From Nymphaea colorata (lineage: Eukaryota; Streptophyta; Magnoliopsida; Nymphaeales; Nymphaeaceae): DNA of 64,000 bases. Position 1 is the stretch's first letter, and the number at the start of each line of letters is the position of its first letter. Below are positions 14,688 through 49,886 of this stretch, in pieces. The translations under genes were made by a program, and so were the position numbers. The stretch is taken from the NCBI RefSeq assembly GCF_008831285.2, contig NC_045138.2, positions 14,706,571-14,770,570 on the forward strand, written 5' to 3'. The notes below the pieces were generated by a model that was not told where the DNA came from, ran no database searches, and saw only the letters and a list, made by a program, of their open reading frames with translations.

Positions 14688-15782
14688 TCATGGAACCGCG
14701 TCGATTCTAGCGTCGAATGCGAAGCCCCGGCAGAGACCATCTTTGCTCTCAGAGATTCCTGTAACCCATCTCCAAGCTCCTTTGCCCTTCTCCGAAGAAT
14801 CCCACATCGCCAATTTCCCCGCTCCCTTCCCTGAGAAGAACACCCTATCCCCCATTCCGAACACCTTGAATTTGCCCCAGCTACGGAAGCAGTCGAAGAA
14901 TTCGCCAGGCATCCTTCCGGCCTCATCCCACTCGAGATTTGCAAGGTCGAGCCGGAGGATGATGATGGTCGAGCAGACGGAATTGGTTGCGAACGAGGCC
15001 TTCAGCCCTCCCACCATCAGCAGACTGTCCCCCTTCCCCTGGATTAGCCGCGGCCGTCTCAAGATGTCGAAGATCTCTCCCCACTCCCGCCGTTCGAGTC
15101 GATCCCAGGCACGGCCTCGCCCCAATTCATCCAATTTGCAGAAGACAAGCTTCCATTGAGCCCTCCACGGAGAGCCGATGTCACAGAGGGCATAGACGGC
15201 GGATCCGACGAGCACAGGACTGCGCGGTTTCGACGATAAACCAGCGGAAAAATTCAGCCAGAGGTTCCCGTCGGCGAGATAGAGGGCGACGAACTCGTTG
15301 AGGACCAAGACGCGCAAACCAGCTGAGAGGACGGTCCCGTGTCGAAACCACGCCGATCCCAACTGAGGCAAAACCCTATATTTTCGCGTGATGGGATTGC
15401 AAATAACAAGCGAGCGGCCGGAATCCGATTCGCACCATAGATACAGGAGCCCAGAGGAGGCGGCCACGGGGATGGCGGAGTTGAAGGGGAGGAAATCGAG
15501 GGGAAAGCGAAGCCACTCATCGCTGTCAGCATCGTAGACGTGAAGAAGGGAGTCCGGCGAGGCACGACGGGATTTCCGGCAGTGCGACGGATGGACGACG
15601 AACCAGCTGAGGGCGGTACGTTGGGCCACGCGCTGGACGAAGAAGGGGCACGTTAGGGTTTGCTTGAACAGCTTGCACACGGCGCGGCAGGCGCAGATTT
15701 CCCGGACGGAAAGGCGCGTGAAGATTTGCTGAAGTGGGTCGATCGGCAACTGATAAATGGTAGTCCGACTCGTCGTCTCCAT
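14688..15782 (-). CDS. SKIP15: F-box protein SKIP15 (SCF ubiquitin-ligase subunit)
   Basis: Intronless gene of 364 codons from the preferred start. An F-box at about residues 9-50 (motif LPIDPLQQIF then VCKLFKQ) should bind the SKP1/ASK adaptor of an SCF ubiquitin ligase. The rest is the kelch/galactose-oxidase-like substrate domain. From memory, conserved stretches match Arabidopsis SKIP15 (At1g76920): PLDFLPF, VLPQLGSAW, KPRSPVLVGS, ALCDIGSPWRAQWKL, EWGEIFDI, LEWDEAGRMP and the end GLCRGFAFDA. An in-frame ATG lies seven codons upstream (15803). I chose the second because METTS... aligns with the family start and the length then fits (Arabidopsis about 370). A good donor (AAG/GTATCC) lies 10 nt past the stop, hinting at a 3'UTR intron. 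The substrate is unknown. Confidence 0.9.
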   Translation of the reverse strand: METTSRTTIYQLPIDPLQQIFTRLSVREICACRAVCKLFKQTLTCPFFVQRVAQRTALSWFVVHPSHCRKSRRASPDSLLHVYDADSDEWLRFPLDFLPFNSAIPVAASSGLLYLWCESDSGRSLVICNPITRKYRVLPQLGSAWFRHGTVLSAGLRVLVLNEFVALYLADGNLWLNFSAGLSSKPRSPVLVGSAVYALCDIGSPWRAQWKLVFCKLDELGRGRAWDRLERREWGEIFDILRRPRLIQGKGDSLLMVGGLKASFATNSVCSTIIILRLDLANLEWDEAGRMPGEFFDCFRSWGKFKVFGMGDRVFFSGKGAGKLAMWDSSEKGKGAWRWVTGISESKDGLCRGFAFDARIDAVP

Positions 15783-16250
15783 TGGCCGCCTGAAAATCGA
15801 CAACGCAAGAAAAGATGCCGCAAAAACTTTCGACCTCAGAAAAGCCGGACCCCAGCCTTCAAAGGGTTAATCTGTGGCCGGAAAAAGAAGAGAAGCTAGC
15901 TCCAGATATAGATGGCTCCGGCCATTACAGTGGCAAAACAAGCTGCCTTCTCAGAGAAGGCTTCCTCTTTGGTTCAGACATTTCATCAAACATTTTCAAC
16001 TGCCGCTCCTCATCCAATCTCATTTGTCCGCTTACCCGCCAGCGTTACATATCGTGTGCAAAATATATACGCGCGTGCTTTCCCTCCATCCTTTTTCACA
16101 TCCAGTTTTCTACAAAACCAAAATAATATTTTTTTTTAATATTTTACAAATATCGTAACAAACAAATTGGAAGAATGAAAGATGATCTTATACAAATCTA
16201 AATAGTTTAGTCGACTTTTTAGTTTTTATACACTGATATGAACTCTCGTT

Positions 16251-18217: not shown

Positions 18218-18517
18218 CTACCAAATTGAAGGCTGCAACGCAAAACCTTGAAATCTTTACTGCCGTGAGCGTGAAGTCCCAAAGACATGGAAAGATAGAC
18301 GCACACGCACGAACGCTTGCTCTCTCTCTCTCTCGCATATGGTGGGGGGCCGGAAATGTTATTCGATGATTTCTCTTTCACCCTCTCTCGCTTCTTCTTC
18401 TTCTTGACAAGACGGGTCTCTCTGGTTCTCTCTCCACCTCCTCGCTTATCATTTCATCAGAAGAGGATCTTTTGTTTCAATCTCAGTGGGAAGGCCGTAT
18501 TGAACGCCCTCTTCCAC

Positions 18518-18526
18518 AAACCCTAA
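18518..18526 (+). promoter_or_regulatory. telo-box in the leader of the PHD-finger gene
   Basis: AAACCCTAA lies 21 bp before the preferred start codon. This motif is common near the transcription start of plant genes expressed in dividing cells. It sits downstream of CT-rich patches (about 18317-18420) typical of plant core promoters. Function is inferred from motif identity only. Confidence 0.5.
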
Positions 18527-18546
18527 CGTTAATTCCTACTCTCTCT

Positions 18547-20364
18547 ATGCTGGGCGGCGACCAGAATGCTGAGGAATGCCCCAGCACCGCCGCTGCCGCG
18601 GACTCCTCTCTCCCTCCCAGGAAGCGCCTCCTCGCCGGGCTGAAGCACGAGGTACCTTCCCCGCCGCCAGACTCCGCATCCTCCGTCGGGCCCGCCCTTC
18701 CGTCCGCGCGAGACCCCAACCCCAGCCGCTCTAGGGCTCGATACCTCCCCAATCTCTCCGAGTGCCACGGCTGCGGCAGGAGCGGCACCCTCACCGCAGG
18801 CCCCGGAGGCGGCCGGAAGCTCCAGATGCTCAAGAGCGGGTGGCGGGTCGTCCTCCTCTGCCGTTCCTGCGTCGCCGCCATCAACTCCAGGGAGGTATGC
18901 TCCTATTGCTTCTCGAAGCTCTCTGAACCATTGCTGGTCTTCTCTTGTGTCAATTGCCGCCGCCTTGTCCACCAGGAATGTGGGTCCCGGCAACGGAATT
19001 TTGCATCCAATTTAGAATCGCAGTCGTTTGTGTGCGTCGATTGTTGGGTGCCCAATTATCGGGTCAAGGTCAGGGCTAGGGTTAGGGTTGGTTCCAATGG
19101 CTTGAAGAATCCTTTGCCCGAATTACTACAGACCGATGAAATCAAAGTTCAAACTCCTGCTGAGCAACTGACCGCGGCTCGGTGTTGTATGACGCAGAGT
19201 CAGAGAAGGGCTCTGTCCGACGCTTGCTCGGCAAAGGGGTCGAAGAGCTCGCTGTTTAGACATACAGATCCACCGGTGAAGGAGCTTGTGAGAGAGGCGA
19301 ACTCTGAGACAGAAATGGCGGTGGCTGTGGCCACTTTTGCCAAGGGGAAGGCATTGAGGAAGACTGAGAATGCTACGGGGGCTGCTGCATTGAATGTCGT
19401 AGTGGCTCTCGCTGCTGTGGAGGACAATCCCCTGAGAAAGGGTGGTACTCCGGTTGTGGGGCATTGTAGTGGCATTGATGACGCTAAGAAAGAGGTAGAT
19501 GGCGGGATTACCGATGAGGAATTGGCTCTTCAATTGCACCGGGCAATGAATAGCTCTCCTAGGATATTGAAGAACAACTACGTCAATCGAGACCTATCAT
19601 CTTTGAGGGAAGGTAGGATGTGTACGTACCGTAAGCGTGATTCAAATTCCGTGTTAAATTCGAAGAGGGGGAGAAACATTAATGGGCTTTTGGATAAGCA
19701 GACTGTTTGGCCGAAGAATGATTCAGGCGATTCTTCAAAGTCAGAGTCTGGAAGTCACAGCATATGTGGGAGGTTTGAAGCTTGCACTGGAGATAAACTT
19801 TTTGAAAACCCAGATCGATCAGAGGCCGAGCTGTCGGTTTGTTTGGGCGCTTCTACTGGTGTACCATCGACACATGCTGACACTACTAAGGTATACGAGA
19901 TCGATCATGGGACTTGGAAGATCGATGCTGGGTGTGATGCAGGTAGAGAGATGGCTTCTGAGAGGTTCACGGAAAATGGCGTTGATAATTTTGAAGGTGA
20001 CCGTTTGAGCAGTAGGGATGTGCAGGTGAAAGAGGAGCAAGCTAGCTGTTCCAATAAACCAGCTAACTCTAGTGGAGACGATGATAGCCTGGACACGGAG
20101 TTTGAAAGTTGTCAAAACCAGAATATTGCTTTGTCCATAGGTGATGACGAATCTGTTCATTGTGGTGATGAATCATTCAACTATGGCAACAAGATATATC
20201 GGACGGCAGATGAATCCTGTTCATTGCTGGCGCAGAATAGAAGGGAACCTTCGTCCAATGAGAGCCCCAGAAAGTATAGAAGGAGATGCTTGGATGTTAA
20301 AGGAGCTCCGCACAGGAAAACTGACCCTCTTTCAGACGATCTCATGATTGAAAACCAAGCTTAA
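18547..20364 (+). CDS. PHD-finger protein with a ubiquitin-interacting-like motif
   Basis: Intronless, 605 codons from the preferred ATG; an upstream in-frame ATG at 18472 would add 25 residues of leader-like sequence. Residues 118-166 fit a C4HC3 PHD finger: C118, C121, C134, C137, H142, C145, C163, C166. An extra CxxC pair precedes it (C73/C76, C105/C108), suggesting one further zinc site. At about residues 322-337, DEELALQLHRAMNSS matches the UIM pattern (acidic run, then L-x-x-A-x-x-x-S). The C-terminal half is acidic and Ser-rich, probably disordered, and ends with a basic patch (RKYRRRC) that could be a nuclear signal. I recognise a plant protein type but no named gene. A nuclear chromatin reader that also binds ubiquitin is inference. 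Confidence 0.8.
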   Translation: MLGGDQNAEECPSTAAAADSSLPPRKRLLAGLKHEVPSPPPDSASSVGPALPSARDPNPSRSRARYLPNLSECHGCGRSGTLTAGPGGGRKLQMLKSGWRVVLLCRSCVAAINSREVCSYCFSKLSEPLLVFSCVNCRRLVHQECGSRQRNFASNLESQSFVCVDCWVPNYRVKVRARVRVGSNGLKNPLPELLQTDEIKVQTPAEQLTAARCCMTQSQRRALSDACSAKGSKSSLFRHTDPPVKELVREANSETEMAVAVATFAKGKALRKTENATGAAALNVVVALAAVEDNPLRKGGTPVVGHCSGIDDAKKEVDGGITDEELALQLHRAMNSSPRILKNNYVNRDLSSLREGRMCTYRKRDSNSVLNSKRGRNINGLLDKQTVWPKNDSGDSSKSESGSHSICGRFEACTGDKLFENPDRSEAELSVCLGASTGVPSTHADTTKVYEIDHGTWKIDAGCDAGREMASERFTENGVDNFEGDRLSSRDVQVKEEQASCSNKPANSSGDDDSLDTEFESCQNQNIALSIGDDESVHCGDESFNYGNKIYRTADESCSLLAQNRREPSSNESPRKYRRRCLDVKGAPHRKTDPLSDDLMIENQA

Positions 20365-24290: not shown

Positions 24291-26096
24291 GTTGCAGTTT
24301 CTGGTCTGGTGGCTGTTCACCCTTTTACATATAATTCTGAGGATGCAGGCTGAAATAAGCTACGCCACCTTGCTGCGAAGTTCTTTGTCAAGAAAAAGGA
24401 AAACTACATTGGAGAACAACTGAAGTTACATGTGCCTTCTCGGTTGGTTGGAAGTCCAGAATAAAGCAACTATACAGCTCATCTGTGGAGATATTCATGA
24501 AAACAGTCGTCTGGTTTTGGCTGTTTTTCATCAGTTTAGTTTCATCAAACCCTGATCATGTACGGTGAAGTCTTCCCAGTTTCAACTTTCAAGGTTTCTT
24601 ATCTATTCTGAGTGTCAGACACTAATCGATGGTTGGGAATGTGGGTGCTCACACTGTACTGGCATCAATATTTTGTAACCCATTTTCAGGTAACGTTTCA
24701 GAAAAGAAGCTGAATGTTTGATGTTGTTAAACACACTTCATTTTTTATGCCATTAATGAAAAGCCGATATTTTGTCATTTTGACATCAAACATTAGCTAA
24801 TTGAGCTAAATTGGCCAAAATTTCCTGAAGAAGCTTTTCTCTGCCAACACTGGTCGGTGCCTTTTCTTTTTTTTGTCTCTCTTTTGCACAGATAAGTTGA
24901 AAAGTTGAAGCTGGATGGATCCTTACAGTTTATGCCAACAAAGACGGCACCATGAGTATTGATTTAGTTATTGATGTTCTTCAACCTGAAGGTCCCAAAT
25001 CCAACCCCCTAACCGGACGAAAATGGCGATTATTAGCGAAGGGTAACTTTTACGTACCTTTAATGGCAAATGAAAATTTGTGTCCTATATAAATGAAAAT
25101 TTGTGTTCTTTATACTGGAAGACCCAAGTGTTCAGCATTTACAATCATTTTGGTGACAGATGGAAGTTCGAGGACCTTTCTGATCAACATGGAAAAGGCC
25201 CAAGTGTTCACCACATGTCAAGAACTTATCCACATCTGAACATTAAAAAAACCTGAGGTGTATCTTTGACATTGTCTGTCAATATTATTGCTGAAAGTTG
25301 GCAATAGATCATGAAATCTTAAGCCACGTAAGAGCATGCGACTCTCTAATGGAGGACCCTCTGGATTTGTTCCTATTACGGAATATGCAGTTAAGCCTAC
25401 CTTTCATGAATCTACATAGTGTAGGCTTACTGTGATCAGAACTTGAATTTGGGCTATTGAGTTAATCTGCCTGCACTCCGACCCTACACTGAAACCTAGC
25501 TTAACCATGTTTTTTCTAAGTTAAGCCTGCAGCCAAATGGAGACTAGCTTCTTTTGAATTCAAAAATTGATCAAGTCCAACCGACGTCAAAAACCCATTA
25601 GCTTAATAATGAGTATGAATCCATATTGTTTGAATTGAAAATATTATCTAATTTTGAAACAAAGCATGTATTTCTACAATTTTCTATCACCTGTGCTGAT
25701 CCTTAATTAACATATTGAATATGGTAAATCAAGAAAATTTTAAAAGCCATTAATAGGCAGGAAATATTAATATTTTTTATACGGTTTCTGGGATAATACG
25801 AGATTGGTGAAATCAACGATATTCTGAAGATCTCGCCCTTATATTTATTCACGTAATATTTAGTAGGAGTCATCCGAATATTTGAAGTGCTTACAGAAGT
25901 TTTCACTGAAATCAGGACAATCGAAGCCGTGGTAGGGTCCCGCAGAAATTCTCCACCCCCTCATCTTTCCTTAGCTGTCCATCTCAATGATGGACGGTCG
26001 ATAAACCTCCATTTGATGATCATGAGACGAATACCGGAGAGAAAACCGCCATTTTGTGCAGCAGCTCGCAGATGAAAGGAGGAGAGGGCGCGAAGA

Positions 26097-28237
26097 ATGG
26101 CAATGATGAAAGTGGAAGACGGTGAGGAAGATATCTCCGGGAGGGTGGTGGGCCACTATCTGGTAATCAATAGAATTGGTGCTGGTAACAGCGCAGTGGT
26201 TTGGAGGGCAGAGCACGCGATCAGCGGCAGAAGGGTTGCGCTGAAGAGGGTGGACCTCTCCATGCTCAACAGGAGGCTCAGGGAGTCTTTGGATTGTGAG
26301 CTCGCGTTCTTGGCCAAGGTTGATCACCCGAACATCATCCGGCTGATTGAAGTCTTCGAGGTTAGACTTGTCTCTGTGCTTTCTTGTCAAATTCGAGTGC
26401 CCAGTTCTCGTTTTGTGAAGGAAGTTTGCGTTTGGGGGCTAATTCTCATGTTGGTTGTTGAGTTTTCAACCGAAATTGGAGGTTTCTTGGTGTTGATGGA
26501 TCGGAATTTGATGTTGTTGGAGGAGTGATAACTGATAAGTGGTTGTGGAGTCTTTGATGGATATTTAAGAAGGTGGAGTTCAACGTGAAATAAATGGTTG
26601 ATTTTGTTCAAGTGAACTTGGTTGTGGTGATATCTGATGGTTGAATCCTGTAATTTTCTGATGCTTTCTGTTACATCAAATTATTGATGAGATCGAATTG
26701 GGTAGTGAGTCTAGTGACCCGATTAGCTGTTTCTGCTGTTGAGGAATTGAAAGGGTTTTGTCTTGAACAGGGAATCTAATTGTGGCTGTTAAATACTTGC
26801 GAAATGTAGCTTAAATGGTGGGTTAAGTGATTATGGAACCTAGGTCAGTAACAACTTGCTGCAGTGTGGTTTTTGTGATGCAAGTAATACTTGCACCATC
26901 GGTATAGTAATTTTCTACGTGTGTTAGTGACCGTAAAATGCTATTTTATGGCATTTGATAGCCAACGAATAAATCATTTTTCGTCCTCAACGTAGCATAT
27001 TGAAGCTTCTACTCAATTTGGTGCTTGCTTCAACTTCATCAGAATATTAGTAGACGAAAATGTAAAATTGTTTGTTCTAGAAAAGAGCCTTCTATAGAAA
27101 ATATTGTTGTTCTGATACTTGATCATGGCTTTACCTTTACTTTCATGTAGGCTAGTAAATATTTGTTCCTTGTCTTGGAGTTCTGTGCTGGGGGAGACTT
27201 GTCTTCTTACATTCAGCGGAATGGCATGGTTTCAGAACAAATTGCAAGAACATTTTTACGGCAACTTGGTAATCCCTTCTCTTATATGGTGTGTGGAATA
27301 TGTTTTGTTTGATACAGACGAGCTACTGGACAGTTGGTAAAAACTGATCTGTGTTTTCCAGCTACTGGTTATGAGGTCCTACATGCTCACCACGTTATTC
27401 ACCGGGATTTGAAGCCAGAAGTATGGAAACATTTTTTCATTCAATACTTCCCTGTAGAACGATCATGTATTTGAGGTTGTGCTTGAGCAATTCTTTTCTT
27501 GTCGCAGAACATTCTCCTCTCTACACCAAATTGTGATGCTGTGCTAAAAATATCAGACTTTGGCCTGTCAAGGTTATTTAAGAAACCTCTTGGAGTTCTT
27601 TTTCAGCATTACAATTTGTCAGCAAAGAAAAAGGAATGAAACGGTTTCAACTTTCAACTGTATTACAGGACTATAGGTCCAGGTGATAATGCAGAGACTG
27701 TTTGTGGATCTCCTCTATACATGGCTCCAGAAGTCTTGCAGTTTCAAAAGTATGATGAGAAGGTATATTCTATATTTTTGCGTATTTGCTAAGTCGATTG
27801 AACGATGCATTTCAGGTTCTTGTTTTGTAGGTCGATTTGTGGAGTCTTGGTGTCATTGCCTTCGAGCTTTTAAATGGGTATCCACCCTTTAAAGGGAGAA
27901 ACAATGTTCAGGTATCTCTGCTACGCCAGCTCCTTTGTTTTCCGTCATCCAGTTCCTTTCTAACATGTATCTTTCTTGATATGACTCACTACAGCTGCTC
28001 CAGGGTATCACCAACTCTACGAGGCTTCCATTTTCAGAACTCATTCTCCCGAAGCTGCATCCTGATTGCGTGGAGATGTGTACAAGGTTACTGTGTAAAA
28101 ACCCAGGTTTGTTGATGAACTTATAAGATGATTCACATATAGAAGATCATCTTCGGACCCTGATGTGGATGACTAACTTTGCAGACAACCGGTTGTCCTT
28201 CGAAGAATTTTATCATCACAAATTCCTGAACAAATGA
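26097..28237 (+). CDS. ATG1-family Ser/Thr kinase, kinase domain only (ATG1t-like)
   Basis: Eight exons: 26097-26360, 27151-27268, 27362-27420, 27508-27572, 27669-27762, 27831-27911, 27995-28106, 28185-28237. All junctions are GT-AG and phases agree; the product is 281 aa. Kinase motifs are complete: glycine loop [11 protein letters not shown], lysine in VALKRV, helix-C glutamate in CELAFL, HRDLKPEN, SDFGLS, APE in YMAPEV. The sequence best fits ATG1/ULK kinases, which start autophagy. The protein stops right after the kinase domain ([15 protein letters not shown]), so the long linker and C-terminal ATG13-binding region of canonical ATG1 are absent, as in Arabidopsis ATG1t (At1g49180), though that protein is longer. 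The stop lies 72 bp from the stop of the convergent MEF21-like gene, so no room for a long tail is seen. Close ATG starts at 26097 and 26106 are alternatives. Confidence 0.82.
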
Positions 28238-28309: not shown

Positions 28310-29908
28310 TCATGTAACAATGTCTGCTGCTATCCTTAGTTCCTGATCTAATAGATGAAGCGTGTTGTAAATCTCTTCTGCTTGTGGGTATGAGCCTTCT
28401 CCTGCTACAAACTCCTGAACCAAATTATTGACCTCAATCAAGCTGCAACCTGGTGATCTATTCGTCTTCTTACTCCTCATCAATTTTCTGATTCGCGAAA
28501 CATCATCCCATTGGCGTTCAGCTGCATAAATATTGGACAACAATACATAGTTTCCCATGTCTTCTGGTTCAAGTTGGACAAGGTGCTCCATTGCTGTTAT
28601 TGCGATTCTAACATTTCCGTGAATCTTGCAAGCACTGAGCAGCGAGCCCCATATGGCTGCATCTGGTTCTATTGGCATGTCCTGTATGAATTCAAGAGCA
28701 GAATCAAGTTGGCCATTACGTCCAAGAAGGTCAACGAGACATCCATAATGTTCAACCTTAGGATTGATACGATGGTCCTTCATCATGGACTCAAAATAAT
28801 GTAGTCCGTCATAAAGAAGTCCACCATGAACACAGGCAGAGAGAACGCCAAGGAACGTAATACTGTTGGGTTCCACCCCAGCTACTTTCATTTCATGAAA
28901 GAGTTGGATGGCTACTTGGCTTTGGCTATGGTGTGCAAAGCCATTAATTATGGTGCTCCATGAGATGACATCTCTTTCAGGCATTTGAACAAACAATTCG
29001 CCCGCTTCCTCGATTCTTCCACATTTTACGTACATCTCAATCAGTGCATTACATATGCAAATATTACGTAGGAAATTGTGCCTATCCGCATAGACATGTA
29101 TCCATCTTCCAAGTTCAAGGGCACCTGACTGTGCACAAGCTGGTAGCACAGAAACAATGCTGGTCTCATCAGGTTTTAGTTCAGCAAGCTGCATTTGATG
29201 AAACACCTGCAACGCTTCGCGATAATAGTTGCTTCTTGCATAGCCAGATACCATCGCGGTCCAAGAGATTATCGTTCTCTCCGGCATTGTGGCAAAGACT
29301 TCTTTGGCCTTGCTCATATTTCCCGTTCCAGCATATCCGGAAAGAAGGGTATTCCAGGAGACAGTATCTCTGTGAGACATTTCAACAAACGCTTGCTGTG
29401 CAGCGTCTAGGCTGCCACATTTTGCATACATGTCTAAGAGAGCGTTTTGGACATAAGAATGCTTTGCAAGACCCAATTTGCAGATATGGCCATGAATCTG
29501 GTTGCCGAGATGGAGGTGTAGAAGACCAGCAGAGGACTTAAGTGCGAAGGGGAAGGTGAATCTGTCTGGCAAGATTGGTCTTCCATTTTGTGAGTCTGCG
29601 AGCATCTGCTTATAGACTGAAATGGCTTCACTGAAAAATCTGTTGTTGCTGTAAACTCTGATCATGGCATTATACAAGAAGATATTTGGTGCTAGTACTT
29701 GCTTGAAGATCAAGGATGCATAGTCGGTGCCGTCATTGGTGTCACAAAAGTCTAATATTTTGGTCATTAAGAAGTTGCTCTGGGAGAGACCTATCTTAAC
29801 GATATGGGCATGGGTCTGCTTCAGATGCTTAATGTCTCTGCAGCTCTGTAATATGGGTGCAACTTGATTTTCCAAGTCTCGGACAACAGAAATGAAACAG
29901 TTTCTCAT
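28310..29908 (-). CDS. MEF21: PLS-class PPR protein, mitochondrial editing factor 21-like
   Basis: Intronless, 532 aa from the preferred start, against about 534 for Arabidopsis MEF21 (At2g20540). Tandem PPR motifs of P, L and S type run through the protein (for example YNAMIRVYSNNRFFSEAISV, ISWTAMVSGYARSNYYREAL). They are followed by an E/E+ region (GNYVLLSNIYAAERQWDDVS, CSLIEVNNLVQEFVAGE) and no DYW domain. The start VVRDLENQVAPILQSC and EPEDMGNYVLLSNIYA are strongly MEF21-like. The family directs C-to-U RNA editing in mitochondria by binding a site and recruiting a DYW deaminase. The ORF is open upstream to an ATG at 30004, but that lies inside the divergent PPR gene and the extra 32 residues have no counterpart. 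The start codon is 8 bp from that gene's start. The edited site in this plant is not known. Confidence 0.9.
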   Translation of the reverse strand: MRNCFISVVRDLENQVAPILQSCRDIKHLKQTHAHIVKIGLSQSNFLMTKILDFCDTNDGTDYASLIFKQVLAPNIFLYNAMIRVYSNNRFFSEAISVYKQMLADSQNGRPILPDRFTFPFALKSSAGLLHLHLGNQIHGHICKLGLAKHSYVQNALLDMYAKCGSLDAAQQAFVEMSHRDTVSWNTLLSGYAGTGNMSKAKEVFATMPERTIISWTAMVSGYARSNYYREALQVFHQMQLAELKPDETSIVSVLPACAQSGALELGRWIHVYADRHNFLRNICICNALIEMYVKCGRIEEAGELFVQMPERDVISWSTIINGFAHHSQSQVAIQLFHEMKVAGVEPNSITFLGVLSACVHGGLLYDGLHYFESMMKDHRINPKVEHYGCLVDLLGRNGQLDSALEFIQDMPIEPDAAIWGSLLSACKIHGNVRIAITAMEHLVQLEPEDMGNYVLLSNIYAAERQWDDVSRIRKLMRSKKTNRSPGCSLIEVNNLVQEFVAGEGSYPQAEEIYNTLHLLDQELRIAADIVT

Positions 29909-29916
29909 CGACAGCG
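29909..29916. promoter_or_regulatory. 8-bp gap between divergent PPR start codons
   Basis: CGACAGCG is all that separates the ATG of the minus PPR gene (29906-29908) from the ATG of the plus PPR gene (29917-29919). Unless both mRNAs lack leaders, each promoter and leader must lie inside the other gene's coding region, so the two transcripts overlap in antisense. Confidence 0.7.
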
Positions 29917-31965
29917 ATGGCGGAAGAGAACAAGAGATTCGCGCCGCTTCTGAGGTCCTGCGCAAAATTGGGGCTGCTAGCTCAAGGAATGCAGATCCAT
30001 GCAATGCTCCTGAAGCTGAGAAATGAGTTTGATCTTGTAATGAACAACACGCTGGTGGATATGTATGCTAAATGCCGGAAACCAGATGTTGCACAAAAGG
30101 TGTTTGATATGATGCCTGAGAGAAATGTGGTCTCCTGGACTGTCCTCATCAATGGATATTTGCAACAAGGAAGGCCTTGTGGTTCACTTTCTCTGTTTTC
30201 TGATATGAGTGTTGCAGGGGTCAGACCAAATGAATTCACATTTTCGTTAAACCTGAAAGCCTGTGCATCCCTCGGTCTTCCTGCTCATGGCATGCAGATA
30301 CATGATCTGTGCGTGAAGACTGGCTTCGAAGGGTACGCAGTTGTGAGCAATGCACTTATTGATATGTATGCCAAAACTGGTGTTCTTCAGGATGCGGTAA
30401 AAGTGTTTGAGAAAATGCGAATGCGAAATCTCATTTCTTGGAATACCATGATTGCAGCATATGTACATTGTGGCCAGGAGAAGAATTCCTTTTCAGCATT
30501 CAGAGAGATGCAAAAGGAAGGCGAGATACCGGACGAGTTTACATTATCAAGCCTCTTGAAGGCTAGCGGCAGTCTTGGCTCCCTTGAAAGGGGACTGCGG
30601 ATCCATGCCGCTGTAATCACATTAGGGTTTTCAAAGAGTACAATATTGGCTAGTGCACTCATCGATCTCTATGTTAAGTGCCGGTCCCTCACTGAAGCAC
30701 GTAGTGTTTTTGAGGCGAGCCCGCAAAAGAACGTAGTTTCATGGACAGCAATGCTTGTTGGCTATGCTCAAGAAGCACGGATGATGGAGGCAATGGAGTT
30801 GTTTAGCCGACTTCGGCGAAGTGAAATCCAGATAGATAATTTTGTCATCTCTAGCTTGGTTGGGTCATTTGCAGATTTTGCGTTGGTAGAACTTGGCAAA
30901 CAATTCCACGGGTATACCATCAAGAACCTTTCTGGTTCAGATGTTTCTGTGATCAATTCCATTGTCGATATGTATATCAAATGTGGCATGATACCTGAAG
31001 CAGAACAGTTATTCAATGAAATGCCTGAAAAGAATGTAATCTCATGGACTGTGATGATTACAGGCTACGGGAAACATGGCCATGGCAAGAAGGCAATCGG
31101 TCTGTTTAATGAAATGGAAGCGCAAGGAACCAAGCCAGACGAAGTCACCTTCTTGGCAGTCCTCTCAGCCTGCGGTCATGCTGGGCTCCTGGAAGAAGGT
31201 CGAATGTACTTCACAAAATTAACGGAACAGTTTGGTTTCCAAGCCAAGCAAGAGCATTATGCATGTATGGTGGATCTGCTTGGCCGGGCCGGATGTTTAA
31301 AGGAAGCAAAGAATTTGATACACAGTATGCCAGTTGAACCAAGCTGCGCTGTGTGGCAGACATTGCTTGGAGCTTGCAGGATTCATAGGGATGTGGACTT
31401 GGGTAAAGAAGTGGGAGAAATTCTATTAATGTTGGACAGCAGGAATCCTGTGAATTATGTGGTTTTGTCCAATCTTTACGCTGAGGTAGGTCTGTGGAAG
31501 GAATGTGAAATTATAAGGGAAAAGATGAAGATAAAGGGGCTGAAAAAGGAAGCAGGCTGGAGCTGGATAGAAATTGGCAAGGAGGTACATTTCTTCTATG
31601 GAGGGGATGACTCACACCCTCTATTCAAAGAAATCCATGAGGCCTTGACTGAGGTGACAGGAAAGATAAAGGAAATGGGTTACATTGTAGGAGTGAGGTT
31701 TTCTTTACATGATGTAGATGCAGAGTCCAAGGAAGAAAACCTAAAGCTGCACAGCGAGAAGCTAGCCATTGGGCTGGGGATTGTGCTTGGGTTTGGTGGG
31801 ACAGGAGAAGTTATTAGGGTTTTCAAGAACTTGAGGGTTTGTGGGGATTGCCATGAGTTCTTGAAGGGAGTTTCAAGAATATTGGGGAGAGAAATACTGG
31901 TAAGAGATGCCAACAGGTTCCATAGTTTTTATAACGGAGCATGCAGTTGTGGTGACTATTGGTGA
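29917..31965 (+). CDS. DYW-class PPR protein (At3g15130-like)
   Basis: Intronless, 682 aa, against about 689 for Arabidopsis At3g15130 (PCMP-H86), which it resembles along its length: RNVVSWTVLINGYL, PNEFTFSLNLKAC, VDMYIKCGMIPEAE, VISWTVMITGYGKHG, GLKKEAGWSWIEI. PPR motifs fill about residues 5-500. Then come E/E+ motifs and a complete DYW cytidine-deaminase domain, with the zinc/catalytic HSEKLAIGLG, the CGDC pair and the ending HSFYNGACSCGDYW. The family performs C-to-U RNA editing in mitochondria or plastids. I see no obvious transit peptide at the chosen start, yet there is no room for a longer one without running into the divergent MEF21-like gene. The plus frame upstream was not examined further. 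Confidence 0.9.
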   Translation: MAEENKRFAPLLRSCAKLGLLAQGMQIHAMLLKLRNEFDLVMNNTLVDMYAKCRKPDVAQKVFDMMPERNVVSWTVLINGYLQQGRPCGSLSLFSDMSVAGVRPNEFTFSLNLKACASLGLPAHGMQIHDLCVKTGFEGYAVVSNALIDMYAKTGVLQDAVKVFEKMRMRNLISWNTMIAAYVHCGQEKNSFSAFREMQKEGEIPDEFTLSSLLKASGSLGSLERGLRIHAAVITLGFSKSTILASALIDLYVKCRSLTEARSVFEASPQKNVVSWTAMLVGYAQEARMMEAMELFSRLRRSEIQIDNFVISSLVGSFADFALVELGKQFHGYTIKNLSGSDVSVINSIVDMYIKCGMIPEAEQLFNEMPEKNVISWTVMITGYGKHGHGKKAIGLFNEMEAQGTKPDEVTFLAVLSACGHAGLLEEGRMYFTKLTEQFGFQAKQEHYACMVDLLGRAGCLKEAKNLIHSMPVEPSCAVWQTLLGACRIHRDVDLGKEVGEILLMLDSRNPVNYVVLSNLYAEVGLWKECEIIREKMKIKGLKKEAGWSWIEIGKEVHFFYGGDDSHPLFKEIHEALTEVTGKIKEMGYIVGVRFSLHDVDAESKEENLKLHSEKLAIGLGIVLGFGGTGEVIRVFKNLRVCGDCHEFLKGVSRILGREILVRDANRFHSFYNGACSCGDYW

Positions 31966-47860: not shown

Positions 47861-49578
47861 GGGGGCATTTGATGAACAGGAAATACACTGTTCATCGAGA
47901 AATAAAATTCAAAAATTTAAATTTTTTCCACTTAATCAAACGGAGAAATATTTATTCGACCGTTGAGCTTGATTCCCGAAAATTTTTTCCGGAAAAAATT
48001 TTCCACCTGAAGAGACGGAAAATTTTTTCCGGAAATAAATTTTTGACCGTTGAACGCGAGCGCTCCCTTTTCGCGTCTTCCTTCCTGTGCCGCAGCCGCT
48101 CCCTCTTCTTTCTCGTCGTCCCACAGCCGCGTCGTCTCACAGCCGCTCCCTCCACTCCACCCGAGTAGTGCAGCCGCGAGCCTCCCGTTCCTCTCTTTCT
48201 CACATGGTAGTGTCTCTCTCTCTCTCTCATTCTCTCTCTTGTTCCCCTCTCCCTCTCACTCTCACTTCTGTCGCCCTTTTCTACTGCGTGTGAATGACAT
48301 GGACACATAGCGGAGGCAGCAGCAAACGGGAGGGGAACTCTGTCTCGGGTGCCCCTTTCTCCCTCTCCGGCGAATGCCGGCTGCGCTCTCACTCTCTGGC
48401 CAGCCCAGATTTCTAATGAATGACCAAATTAGCTGCTGTTTCATTTCTGTTTTTCATATGACCAGTGATGTTTCCATTTGGTTCTTAGATCGGTTTGATG
48501 TTCAGTGGATGAACCTTGAGGGTCGTCAGATTTTGGTATGGAGAAGAAAAAGGGGGTTGCTTTCTAATGCTTTAAAACAAAGAAGTTGCTTTCTTAACCA
48601 TTGTTCTCACTCAATCTGAGGATCTTTTTCAAACTAAACAAAGAAAGGATAGTTGTACTTTGTTTTAGTGCAGAGATTATACCTTTTGTTTTATTTCCCC
48701 CTTTTTGCTTCAACCAAAGTTTTGGATGTCCAGGCAATTACAGTGAACGGTGGGTTACAGGAAACTGATGTCATGTTTATTCACAAGCATGGACGAAGAA
48801 CTGTCTCATCTCTTAACATTATCTGCTCTACAGCAGTAAAAGGACTAGCCTACAAGTCTGGCACTGTATGCTTATTTTGTAGAATTGTAGAAGCTGGATT
48901 TAGGGTCATTGCATAAAAAATCCGATGTTCAGTCATCCAGGACTAGCCTACTCTTAATTTTGTGCTTCATTTCTGTTTAAATACATAATGTGGTCCGTTT
49001 TACTATCATTTGTTGATCATTATTTGAGGATCCAATCATGTTCAAGCTGAGTATAATGTTTTTTAGGTTTAGTGGCATTTCGTTCCTGCCACATGCCACA
49101 TAGGCTAGGTCTAATGTTAGATTGAGCAATCTGGGTCGGCTTGAAGGCAGAGGATCTCAGAGTGCTACAACACTGGGCTACCGGATCTGCACTCCATTCA
49201 GGGGCATATTCAGTGATTTCTTTTCTGATGGAGGCCTTGCCAACTAATGTCAGATCAGAGATGCACCTTCTCTTGAGGTTTTAGTTTGATGAGTACTTAT
49301 GGAACTTCACCAAGCCATTTGCTCAGGAAGGGCACAGAGCCCATTTTCTGCAAGGCGACAAATGCATTCCTGTATGACATCCAGATAACTTCCCTGATTG
49401 TTGGGTTCCACGATTGCAAGCTTAGTTCCTTGATTGTTTCTTTAAGATTGTGGTTGTGTCTTGTTTGGGAACTGTCTTAAGATTTCCTGTAAAACTCACA
49501 CAATTTCCTGATTGTGTAAGATCTAACTATTTTCAGATTTTCTGTGTGGTAATCCATTTTGCTTCACTTTTTTGGCAG

Positions 49579-49886
49579 GAAATAAGAGCTCTATTTCCTT
49601 CTGACTACAACCCATTTTATGCTGGATTTGGGAACAGAGACACTGATGAGCTCAGCTACAGGAAGATTGGTATACCAAAAGGAAAAATATTTATTATAAA
49701 TCCCAAGGTTAGATCCCTGATTTGCCAGCTGCTAATATGTTTCTATTTTTGTTTAATTCTAAATGATCTTCTCATGTTGAATTTGAGCAGGGTGAAGTGG
49801 CCATTGATAATTGCGTTGATTCAAGGTCATATTGTTCTTTGCATACGCTAGTGAATGATATGTTCCCCCCAACGTCTCCGGAGCAG
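49579..49886 (+). pseudogene. phosphatidate phosphatase (PAH/lipin) fragment, two exons
   Basis: Two exon-like blocks with intact splice signals, 49579-49707 (43 codons) and 49791-49886 (32 codons). They encode [40 protein letters not shown] and, after the intron, GEVAID...[17 protein letters not shown]. This is the C-terminal part of the lipin LNS2 domain of plant PAH1/PAH2, which turns phosphatidic acid into diacylglycerol. The upstream exons with the catalytic DxDxT motif are missing, as is the last exon, so it cannot be a working enzyme. Where PAH proteins have NRRVD it reads DNCVD. The introns are kept, so the copy came through DNA, not mRNA. Both blocks are still open, so it is young or incorporated in a chimeric transcript. 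Confidence 0.85.

Follow-up and report, generated by a model that had tools for sequence, protein, structure and literature searches.

Two uninterrupted reading frames for PPR proteins lie head to head in the window, the 64,000-nt stretch of Nymphaea colorata DNA that was analysed (NC_045138.2, positions 14,706,571 to 14,770,570 of the forward strand). According to the ORF list and to direct reading, the frame on the minus strand (28310-29908, 532 aa) opens with the ATG at 29908-29906 and that on the plus strand (29917-31965, 682 aa) with the ATG at 29917-29919. The spacing of 8 bp between these start codons, as given in the initial annotation, proved exact. Since both frames are long and motif-complete, the gene pair exceeds what chance would produce. 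The features of the locus are as follows.

28310-29908, minus strand: E-type PLS PPR gene, MEF21-like, 532 aa, uninterrupted frame (ORF, Pfam, alignment, PPR code)
29917-31965, plus strand: DYW-class PLS PPR gene, 682 aa, uninterrupted frame (ORF, Pfam, PDB matches, alignment)
29909-29916, no strand: 8-bp gap between the two start codons (direct reading)
29909-29999, minus strand: possible leader of the minus gene, 91 nt without an upstream ATG, nearly all within codons 1-28 of the plus gene (uATG scan)
29893-29916, plus strand: stretch of 24 nt that opens with the in-frame stop TGA (29893-29895) and ends just before the plus ATG; any longer plus leader would contain a uATG (frame reading, uATG scan)
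29892-30026, plus strand: uORF (44 codons and a stop) that runs out of frame into the beginning of the plus coding sequence (direct reading and uATG scan)
29847-30008, no strand: local CpG peak spanning the divergence point (at least 7 CpG per 100-bp window)

Judged by its translation, the plus gene is a PLS-DYW editing factor. Pfam finds PPR repeats, an E motif (E_motif, 5.9e-17) and a DYW deaminase domain (DYW_deaminase, 8.2e-32) covering profile positions 1-93 of 93; an Eplus match (6.8e-4) stays below the Pfam curated cut-off (19.8 vs 24 bits). Hand segmentation yields 14 contiguous PLS motifs, and the protein contains HSE and CGDCH, which we take to be the HxE and CxxC deaminase signatures, and ends in DYW. 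We regard it as At3g15130-like, given that 366 of 681 aligned residues are identical to the presumed sequence of At3g15130; a literature search for At3g15130 together with PPR found no paper. Matches in the PDB are a synthetic PPR-DYW protein and the DYW domain of At3g63370 (7o4e). The prokaryote and viral collections gave 22 and 8 pattern matches to the plus protein, respectively, none of which was confirmed as a relative.

The minus protein combines PPR repeats with an E motif at residues 430-492 (E_motif, 5.2e-21), and at a threshold of 1e-3 Pfam reports neither a DYW_deaminase nor an Eplus match. Aligned with the presumed sequence of Arabidopsis MEF21, it is identical at 276 of 520 residues and similar in length. 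The initial annotation stated that both proteins agree in length with their Arabidopsis counterparts only if these starts are used, and the presumed sequences of the counterparts accord with this. The PPR code of the minus protein ranks cox3-257 first among 244 candidate positions in COX3 codons 1-124: all 6 of the 6 informative positions fit, and this is the sole site of the 244 with zero mismatches. As a control, the fingerprint of the plus protein has 3 mismatches at cox3-257, but at COX3 positions 246 and 288 all of its 5/5 informative positions fit. This is moderate evidence that cox3-257 may be the target of the minus protein, obtained with an assumed code table, motifs cut by hand, prior knowledge of cox3-257, and C and U taken as interchangeable wherever the codon permits U. 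Overall, the two gene identities proposed earlier are supported. Passages of two published reports link MEF21 to cox3-257 (PMC5877523) or tabulate it with this site in the context of DYW2 and E+ factors (PMC7076377).

Both annotated start codons look real. The first PLS motif begins at residue 6 of the plus protein and at residue 15 of the minus protein (hand segmentation), the next in-frame methionines are residues 25 and 48, respectively, and downstream starts were rejected for both genes because the first repeat would be broken or removed. Furthermore, the plus frame is closed by a TGA 24 nt before the ATG (29893-29895), with no in-frame ATG between. AlphaFold models were built from single sequences without an alignment and are of moderate-to-low confidence (mean pLDDT 64.4 and 61.8); what we took from them is limited to helices 2-18 and 21-33 of the plus model, the first two, which form the first repeat (block pLDDT 65-73). 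Residues 1-96 of the minus model lie below 50 and were left out. With its first repeat at residue 6, the plus protein leaves no space for a classical presequence. The minus ATG stands in a weak context (T at -3, A at +4), and upstream of it the frame continues for another 53 codons without a stop, on the strand antisense to the DYW gene; a non-ATG N-terminal extension of the minus protein is thus conceivable, if improbable. The plus start reads ATGGCGG, which we take to be part of the TISU motif; as a TISU short-leader element it was rejected, the preceding positions fitting poorly.

Because the two ATGs are 8 bp apart, any unspliced leader longer than 8 nt falls within the coding sequence of the partner, as had been proposed at the outset. 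The symmetric picture drawn there is nevertheless too simple, for the scan of upstream ATGs leaves the minus gene a clean leader of 91 nt and the plus gene none of the kind. On the plus strand an out-of-frame uATG, with G at -3 and A at +4, lies 25 nt upstream of the start codon (29892), and its uORF overlaps the beginning of the coding sequence. A plus leader of more than 24 nt would include this uATG, and its overlap with the coding sequence and its purine at -3 would be awkward for a functional gene.

Motif scans of the 600 nt upstream of either start found no TATAWA, site II, telo-box or G-box. A CCAAT is present 63 nt upstream of the minus ATG (29971) and another 444 nt upstream of the plus ATG. 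Pyrimidine patches of at least 8 nt occur within this distance on the minus side only (22, 217, 266 and 577 nt upstream), the nearest (29930-29922) being inside the possible leader; the 600 nt on the plus side have none. The CpG peak over the divergence point is matched by 4.4% of all 100-bp windows, and a CpG island as a promoter mark was discarded, since synonymous shuffling of the first 90 nt of the plus coding sequence (P = 0.207) indicates that codon choice can explain the peak. Over the 30 opening codons, GC3 shows only a weak rise in the plus gene (P = 0.083) and none in the minus gene (P = 0.35).

The sequence shows the genes, their starts and spacing, the uATG layout and the lack of TATAWA; the promoter, transcription starts, co-expression and editing targets of the pair are what we infer. 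We consider it fairly probable that the locus is a divergent pair of functional nuclear PPR genes with one compact TATA-less control region and with 5′ ends that overlap or nearly abut, as starts near or inside the partner would entail. A region centred on both start codons would drive both genes. The minus mRNA would most likely begin within about 91 nt of its ATG, in codons 1-28 of the DYW gene, and the plus mRNA within about 24 nt of its own, giving a very short leader. Alternatively, the plus mRNA might begin further back in the MEF21-like coding sequence, in which case the 44-codon overlapping uORF would damp translation. Weak co-expression would be the usual outcome for such a pair. The MEF21-type factor would direct C-to-U editing at cox3-257 with a deaminase supplied in trans, while the plus factor, which has its own deaminase domain, would edit a different site, one expected to match Y A N Y U N A G N Y G at -16 to -6. 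A shared regulatory unit for two PPR genes is plausible but unproven.

A more daring proposal is that each start region serves both genes: codons 1-30 of the DYW gene would also be promoter and leader for the MEF21-like gene, and vice versa. Translation of the DYW gene would then proceed via an ultra-short leader or under the control of the uORF that starts 25 nt upstream, and a small shift of the DYW start site would act as an on/off switch tying cox3-257 editing to a second editing event. We hold this to be improbable.

As for origin, the arrangement may be an accident of PPR gene mobility, in which one copy inserted directly upstream of its neighbour and took over the promoter there, shared regulation never having been selected. 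We rate this as possible, if short of probable. PMC1892557 describes PPR gene positions as highly variable among related plant genomes and proposes birth-and-death evolution that involves transposition. Between the two proteins identity is only 32% (171/529), and 29400-30400 holds no inverted repeat of at least 14 nt, which speaks against a recent inverted duplication and leaves that route to the pair unsupported. On the other hand, leaders within the coding sequence of the partner would be needed under this account as well, and both frames are intact, each gene presumably having a working promoter. Taken as a statement of origin only, this account is compatible with a shared promoter.

A 5′ leader intron in one or both mRNAs would change the geometry itself: the promoter would be distant, the coding exon would open just before the ATG, and nothing would oblige a promoter to adjoin the start codons within the coding sequence of the partner. 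The initial annotation, which had held that promoters or leaders must lie there, did not mention this solution. A crude home-made score, applied to 7,906 AG sites of the window, places the AG at 29914 (plus strand) among the best 15% and that at 29843 among the best 6.3%, although the latter precedes the uATG at 29892; the AG at 30010 (minus strand) ranks among the best 0.5%. An acceptor at 29914 would also remove the troublesome uATG and resolve the uORF problem. However, only one donor-like site (at least 6/8) is found in 28310-29850 on the plus strand and one in 29980-31965 on the minus strand, where the plus strand of the whole window has 1.7 per kb, and a donor beyond the partner gene implies an intron longer than roughly 1.6 or 2 kb. 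PLS PPR genes are, moreover, mostly intronless. The splice sites thus lend a leader intron weak but not nil support, and we judge it unlikely.

Mutually exclusive expression had also been suggested; sense-antisense silencing via overlapping 5′ ends would be a related form of regulation. Leaders of more than 8 nt on both sides would indeed yield complementary 5′ sequence, but the PPR codes of the two proteins differ, so that exclusion would have no evident purpose. In addition, the Arabidopsis data in passages of PMC2851598 show ordinary abundance for 5′-overlapping pairs and a positive mean co-expression (0.140 vs 0.014 for random pairs; n=23, not significant, P = 0.142). Such regulation is therefore unsupported and, in our estimation, very unlikely. 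An assembly misjoin that put the two genes head to head is likewise very unlikely, as the false join would need to hit the 8 bp next to two intact start codons, in a window without any N and at a junction where no inverted repeat was found.

Should this geometry prove correct, the control sequence shared by two nuclear editing factors would also be coding. The locus would then offer a natural test of promoter and leader function written inside protein-coding DNA, of plant translation from a leader of at most 24 nt or through an overlapping uORF, and of a possible co-regulation of two editing events. Arrangements of this type are already known; the mechanism put forward here is a proposal.

Each gene has its counterpart among known factors. 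Like Arabidopsis MEF21 (At2g20540), the minus gene has an E motif without a DYW domain and a fingerprint fitting cox3-257; unlike it, the minus gene has a head-to-head PPR neighbour, which MEF21 is not known to have. The plus gene resembles the PLS-DYW factors At3g15130 and At3g63370 (PDB 7o4e) in its PLS tract, E motif and DYW deaminase with terminal DYW, and differs from them in that the first repeat starts at residue 6.

As to the pair, passages of two genome surveys list 23 5′-overlapping opposite-strand pairs against 6,077 non-overlapping divergent pairs in Arabidopsis (PMC2851598), with raised co-expression (0.152) for divergent pairs less than 400 bp apart, and a predicted 5′ overlap for 67 of 2,471 head-to-head pairs (PMC2648788). 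By these counts, which rest on annotated transcript ends and not on ATG distances and serve only as a guide, an 8-bp spacing would be rare. The second survey also names one Arabidopsis head-to-head pair with a PPR gene, AT3G11450/AT3G11460, 773 bp apart and under its score threshold (PMC2648788). In soybean, a PPR gene is named as a member of a natural antisense pair (PMC3710604). A non-exhaustive literature search on PPR head-to-head or divergent genes, bidirectional promoters and MEF21 found no description of the present pair. With the plant pairs that overlap at their 5′ ends (PMC2648788, PMC2851598), as far as those passages describe them, it has in common opposite strands, presumably adjacent 5′ ends and the expectation of a shared compact promoter. 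Bidirectional promoter pairs are defined by transcription starts on opposite strands within 1000 bp, and their two genes are usually co-expressed. In contrast to them, the 8 bp between its ATGs place leader and promoter in coding sequence unless spliced, and both partners belong to the same protein family and process. The arrangement is of a known kind, and the pair is unusual in its spacing and shared function.

Direct reading confirmed the pair of head-to-head genes, and the coordinates first assigned to both open reading frames (ORFs), their start codons and the gap between them proved exact:

28310-29908, minus strand: ORF of the MEF21-like E-type PLS PPR gene (minus gene), 532 aa, ATG at 29908-29906
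29917-31965, plus strand: ORF of the At3g15130-like DYW-class PLS PPR gene (plus gene), 682 aa, ATG at 29917-29919
29909-29916: gap between the two ATGs, 8 bp

The gene identities proposed in the initial annotation are right as far as Pfam domains and Protein Data Bank matches can test them. By Pfam, both proteins carry PPR repeats and an E motif, and the plus protein has in addition a DYW deaminase domain, matched over its full length. Residues 70-682 and 547-682 of the plus protein match a synthetic PPR-DYW protein and the DYW domain of At3g63370, respectively (Protein Data Bank). Scans of prokaryote and viral collections, made with the plus protein only, found no relatives. In a comparison with Arabidopsis MEF21 and At3g15130, used only as a lead, the minus protein is identical to the former at 276 of 520 aligned residues (53%) and the plus protein to the latter at 366 of 681 (54%); identities in the crossed pairings are 33 and 35%.

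The editing site cox3-257 has been linked to MEF21 (PMC5877523; PMC7076377). Targets were predicted from the contiguous PLS motifs, cut by hand (12 in the minus and 14 in the plus protein), by translating the code-residue pair of every P and S motif through a PPR code table. The target was the back-translated first 124 codons of plant COX3 (chain 7jro_c), in which, because of editing, C was accepted wherever U is allowed. On this stretch, the only part of the mitochondrial transcriptome scanned and one whose cox3-257 site was known in advance, the minus protein fits nucleotide 257 at 6/6 informative positions, which ranks first among 244 candidate positions and is the only one without a mismatch. 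As a control, the plus protein gives 5 matches and 3 mismatches there; however, it fits positions 246 and 288 (each 5/5 informative), so that such fits arise without known meaning. Its S2 motif (31249-31344, residues 445-476), the last PLS motif ahead of the E domain, has a code pair (A, S) absent from the table used, and its nucleotide preference is unreadable.

As to how the pair arose, PPR gene locations differ between related genomes (PMC1892557), which makes an accident of placement a serious explanation. Such an origin does not compete with a shared promoter, which would describe the pair as it stands now. A motif scan of the 600 nt preceding each start detected no TATAWA, site II, telo-box or G-box. 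The minus ATG is preceded by a pyrimidine patch at a distance of 22 nt and by a CCAAT at 63 nt; the plus ATG has no pyrimidine patch ahead of it in this range, and its sole CCAAT is 444 nt away. A CpG-rich stretch spans 29847-30008, at a level that 4.4% of the 100-bp windows across the whole 64 kb attain; as a promoter mark it was rejected, since it does not exceed what codon choice yields (P = 0.207).

Regarding the start codons, the plus frame has a TGA 24 nt upstream of its ATG and no in-frame ATG between them, so this ORF cannot be extended to an upstream ATG without splicing. The PLS tract of the plus protein opens with an L motif at residue 6, and Met 25, the next one in frame, falls in the middle of that motif; the minus protein has its first motif from residue 15, with Met 48, the next one, beyond it. 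Together with helices 2-18 and 21-33 placed at the extreme N-terminus of the plus protein by a single-sequence AlphaFold model, these positions indicate that downstream starts would damage the first repeat. The ATG context is strong for the plus gene (G at -3, G at +4) and weak for the minus gene (T at -3, A at +4). Upstream of the minus ATG, the frame stays open for 53 codons without an ATG (29909-30067), antisense to the plus-gene start, and a non-ATG N-terminal extension of the minus protein is therefore conceivable. The part of this frame nearest the ATG is Arg/Ser/Ala-rich by eye.

It had been proposed that the leaders lie within the partner's coding sequence. This is sound from the geometry, as any minus leader longer than 8 nt falls within the plus coding sequence and vice versa, with the exception of leader introns. 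An intron in one or both leaders is possible on crude splice-site scores: acceptor-like AGs occur at 29914 and 29843 for the plus gene (best 15% and 6.3% of 7,906) and at 30010 for the minus gene (best 0.5% of 7,906), but each partner-coding stretch examined holds just one donor-like site, a lower density than on the plus strand of the window as a whole (1.7 per kb). The two sides are also unlike in their upstream ATGs (uATGs). The minus gene has 91 nt upstream without any ATG, and its first uATG, at 92 nt, opens a 7-codon ORF that closes ahead of the start. In contrast, the nearest uATG of the plus gene is just 25 nt from its start codon and has G at -3; an out-of-frame uORF of 44 codons begins there and crosses the start. 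Owing to this uATG, the plus mRNA is predicted to start no more than 24 nt from the ATG, to carry an inhibitory overlapping uORF, or to lose a leader intron by splicing.

Other open frames were seen in the window. One at 26076-26528 (+) covers the beginning of a protein kinase domain (Pfam Pkinase, 1.3e-9) and is a likely first exon, of a gene oriented towards the MEF21-like gene and facing its 3' end. A 392-codon F-box frame lies in a GC-rich stretch at 14688-15866 (-), with a KIB1-4 beta-propeller match under Pfam's cut-off. The 664-codon frame at 18370-20364 (+) has no Pfam match at 1e-3, and within its first third a Cys-rich segment is zinc-finger-like by eye. Finally, 49426-49851 (+), a likely exon, matches the LNS2 (lipin) domain (Pfam, 1.3e-15).

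Among the head-to-head pairs of Arabidopsis, a survey of 2,471 predicts 5'-end overlap for 67 (PMC2648788), and another set comprises 23 5'-overlapping against 6,077 non-overlapping divergent pairs (PMC2851598). The mean co-expression of these 23 pairs is 0.140 versus 0.014 for random pairs, a difference that is not significant (P = 0.142); compared with 3'-overlapping pairs, their co-expression is significantly higher (P = 0.031). Their abundance is ordinary (PMC2851598). Co-expression and ordinary abundance in these pairs argue against exclusion or silencing as a default. The mutually exclusive expression suggested in the initial annotation finds no support, as 5'-overlapping Arabidopsis pairs lean to positive co-expression (PMC2851598); coupled expression, its other suggestion, is plausible. 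The pair is a tight member of an already known type of arrangement.
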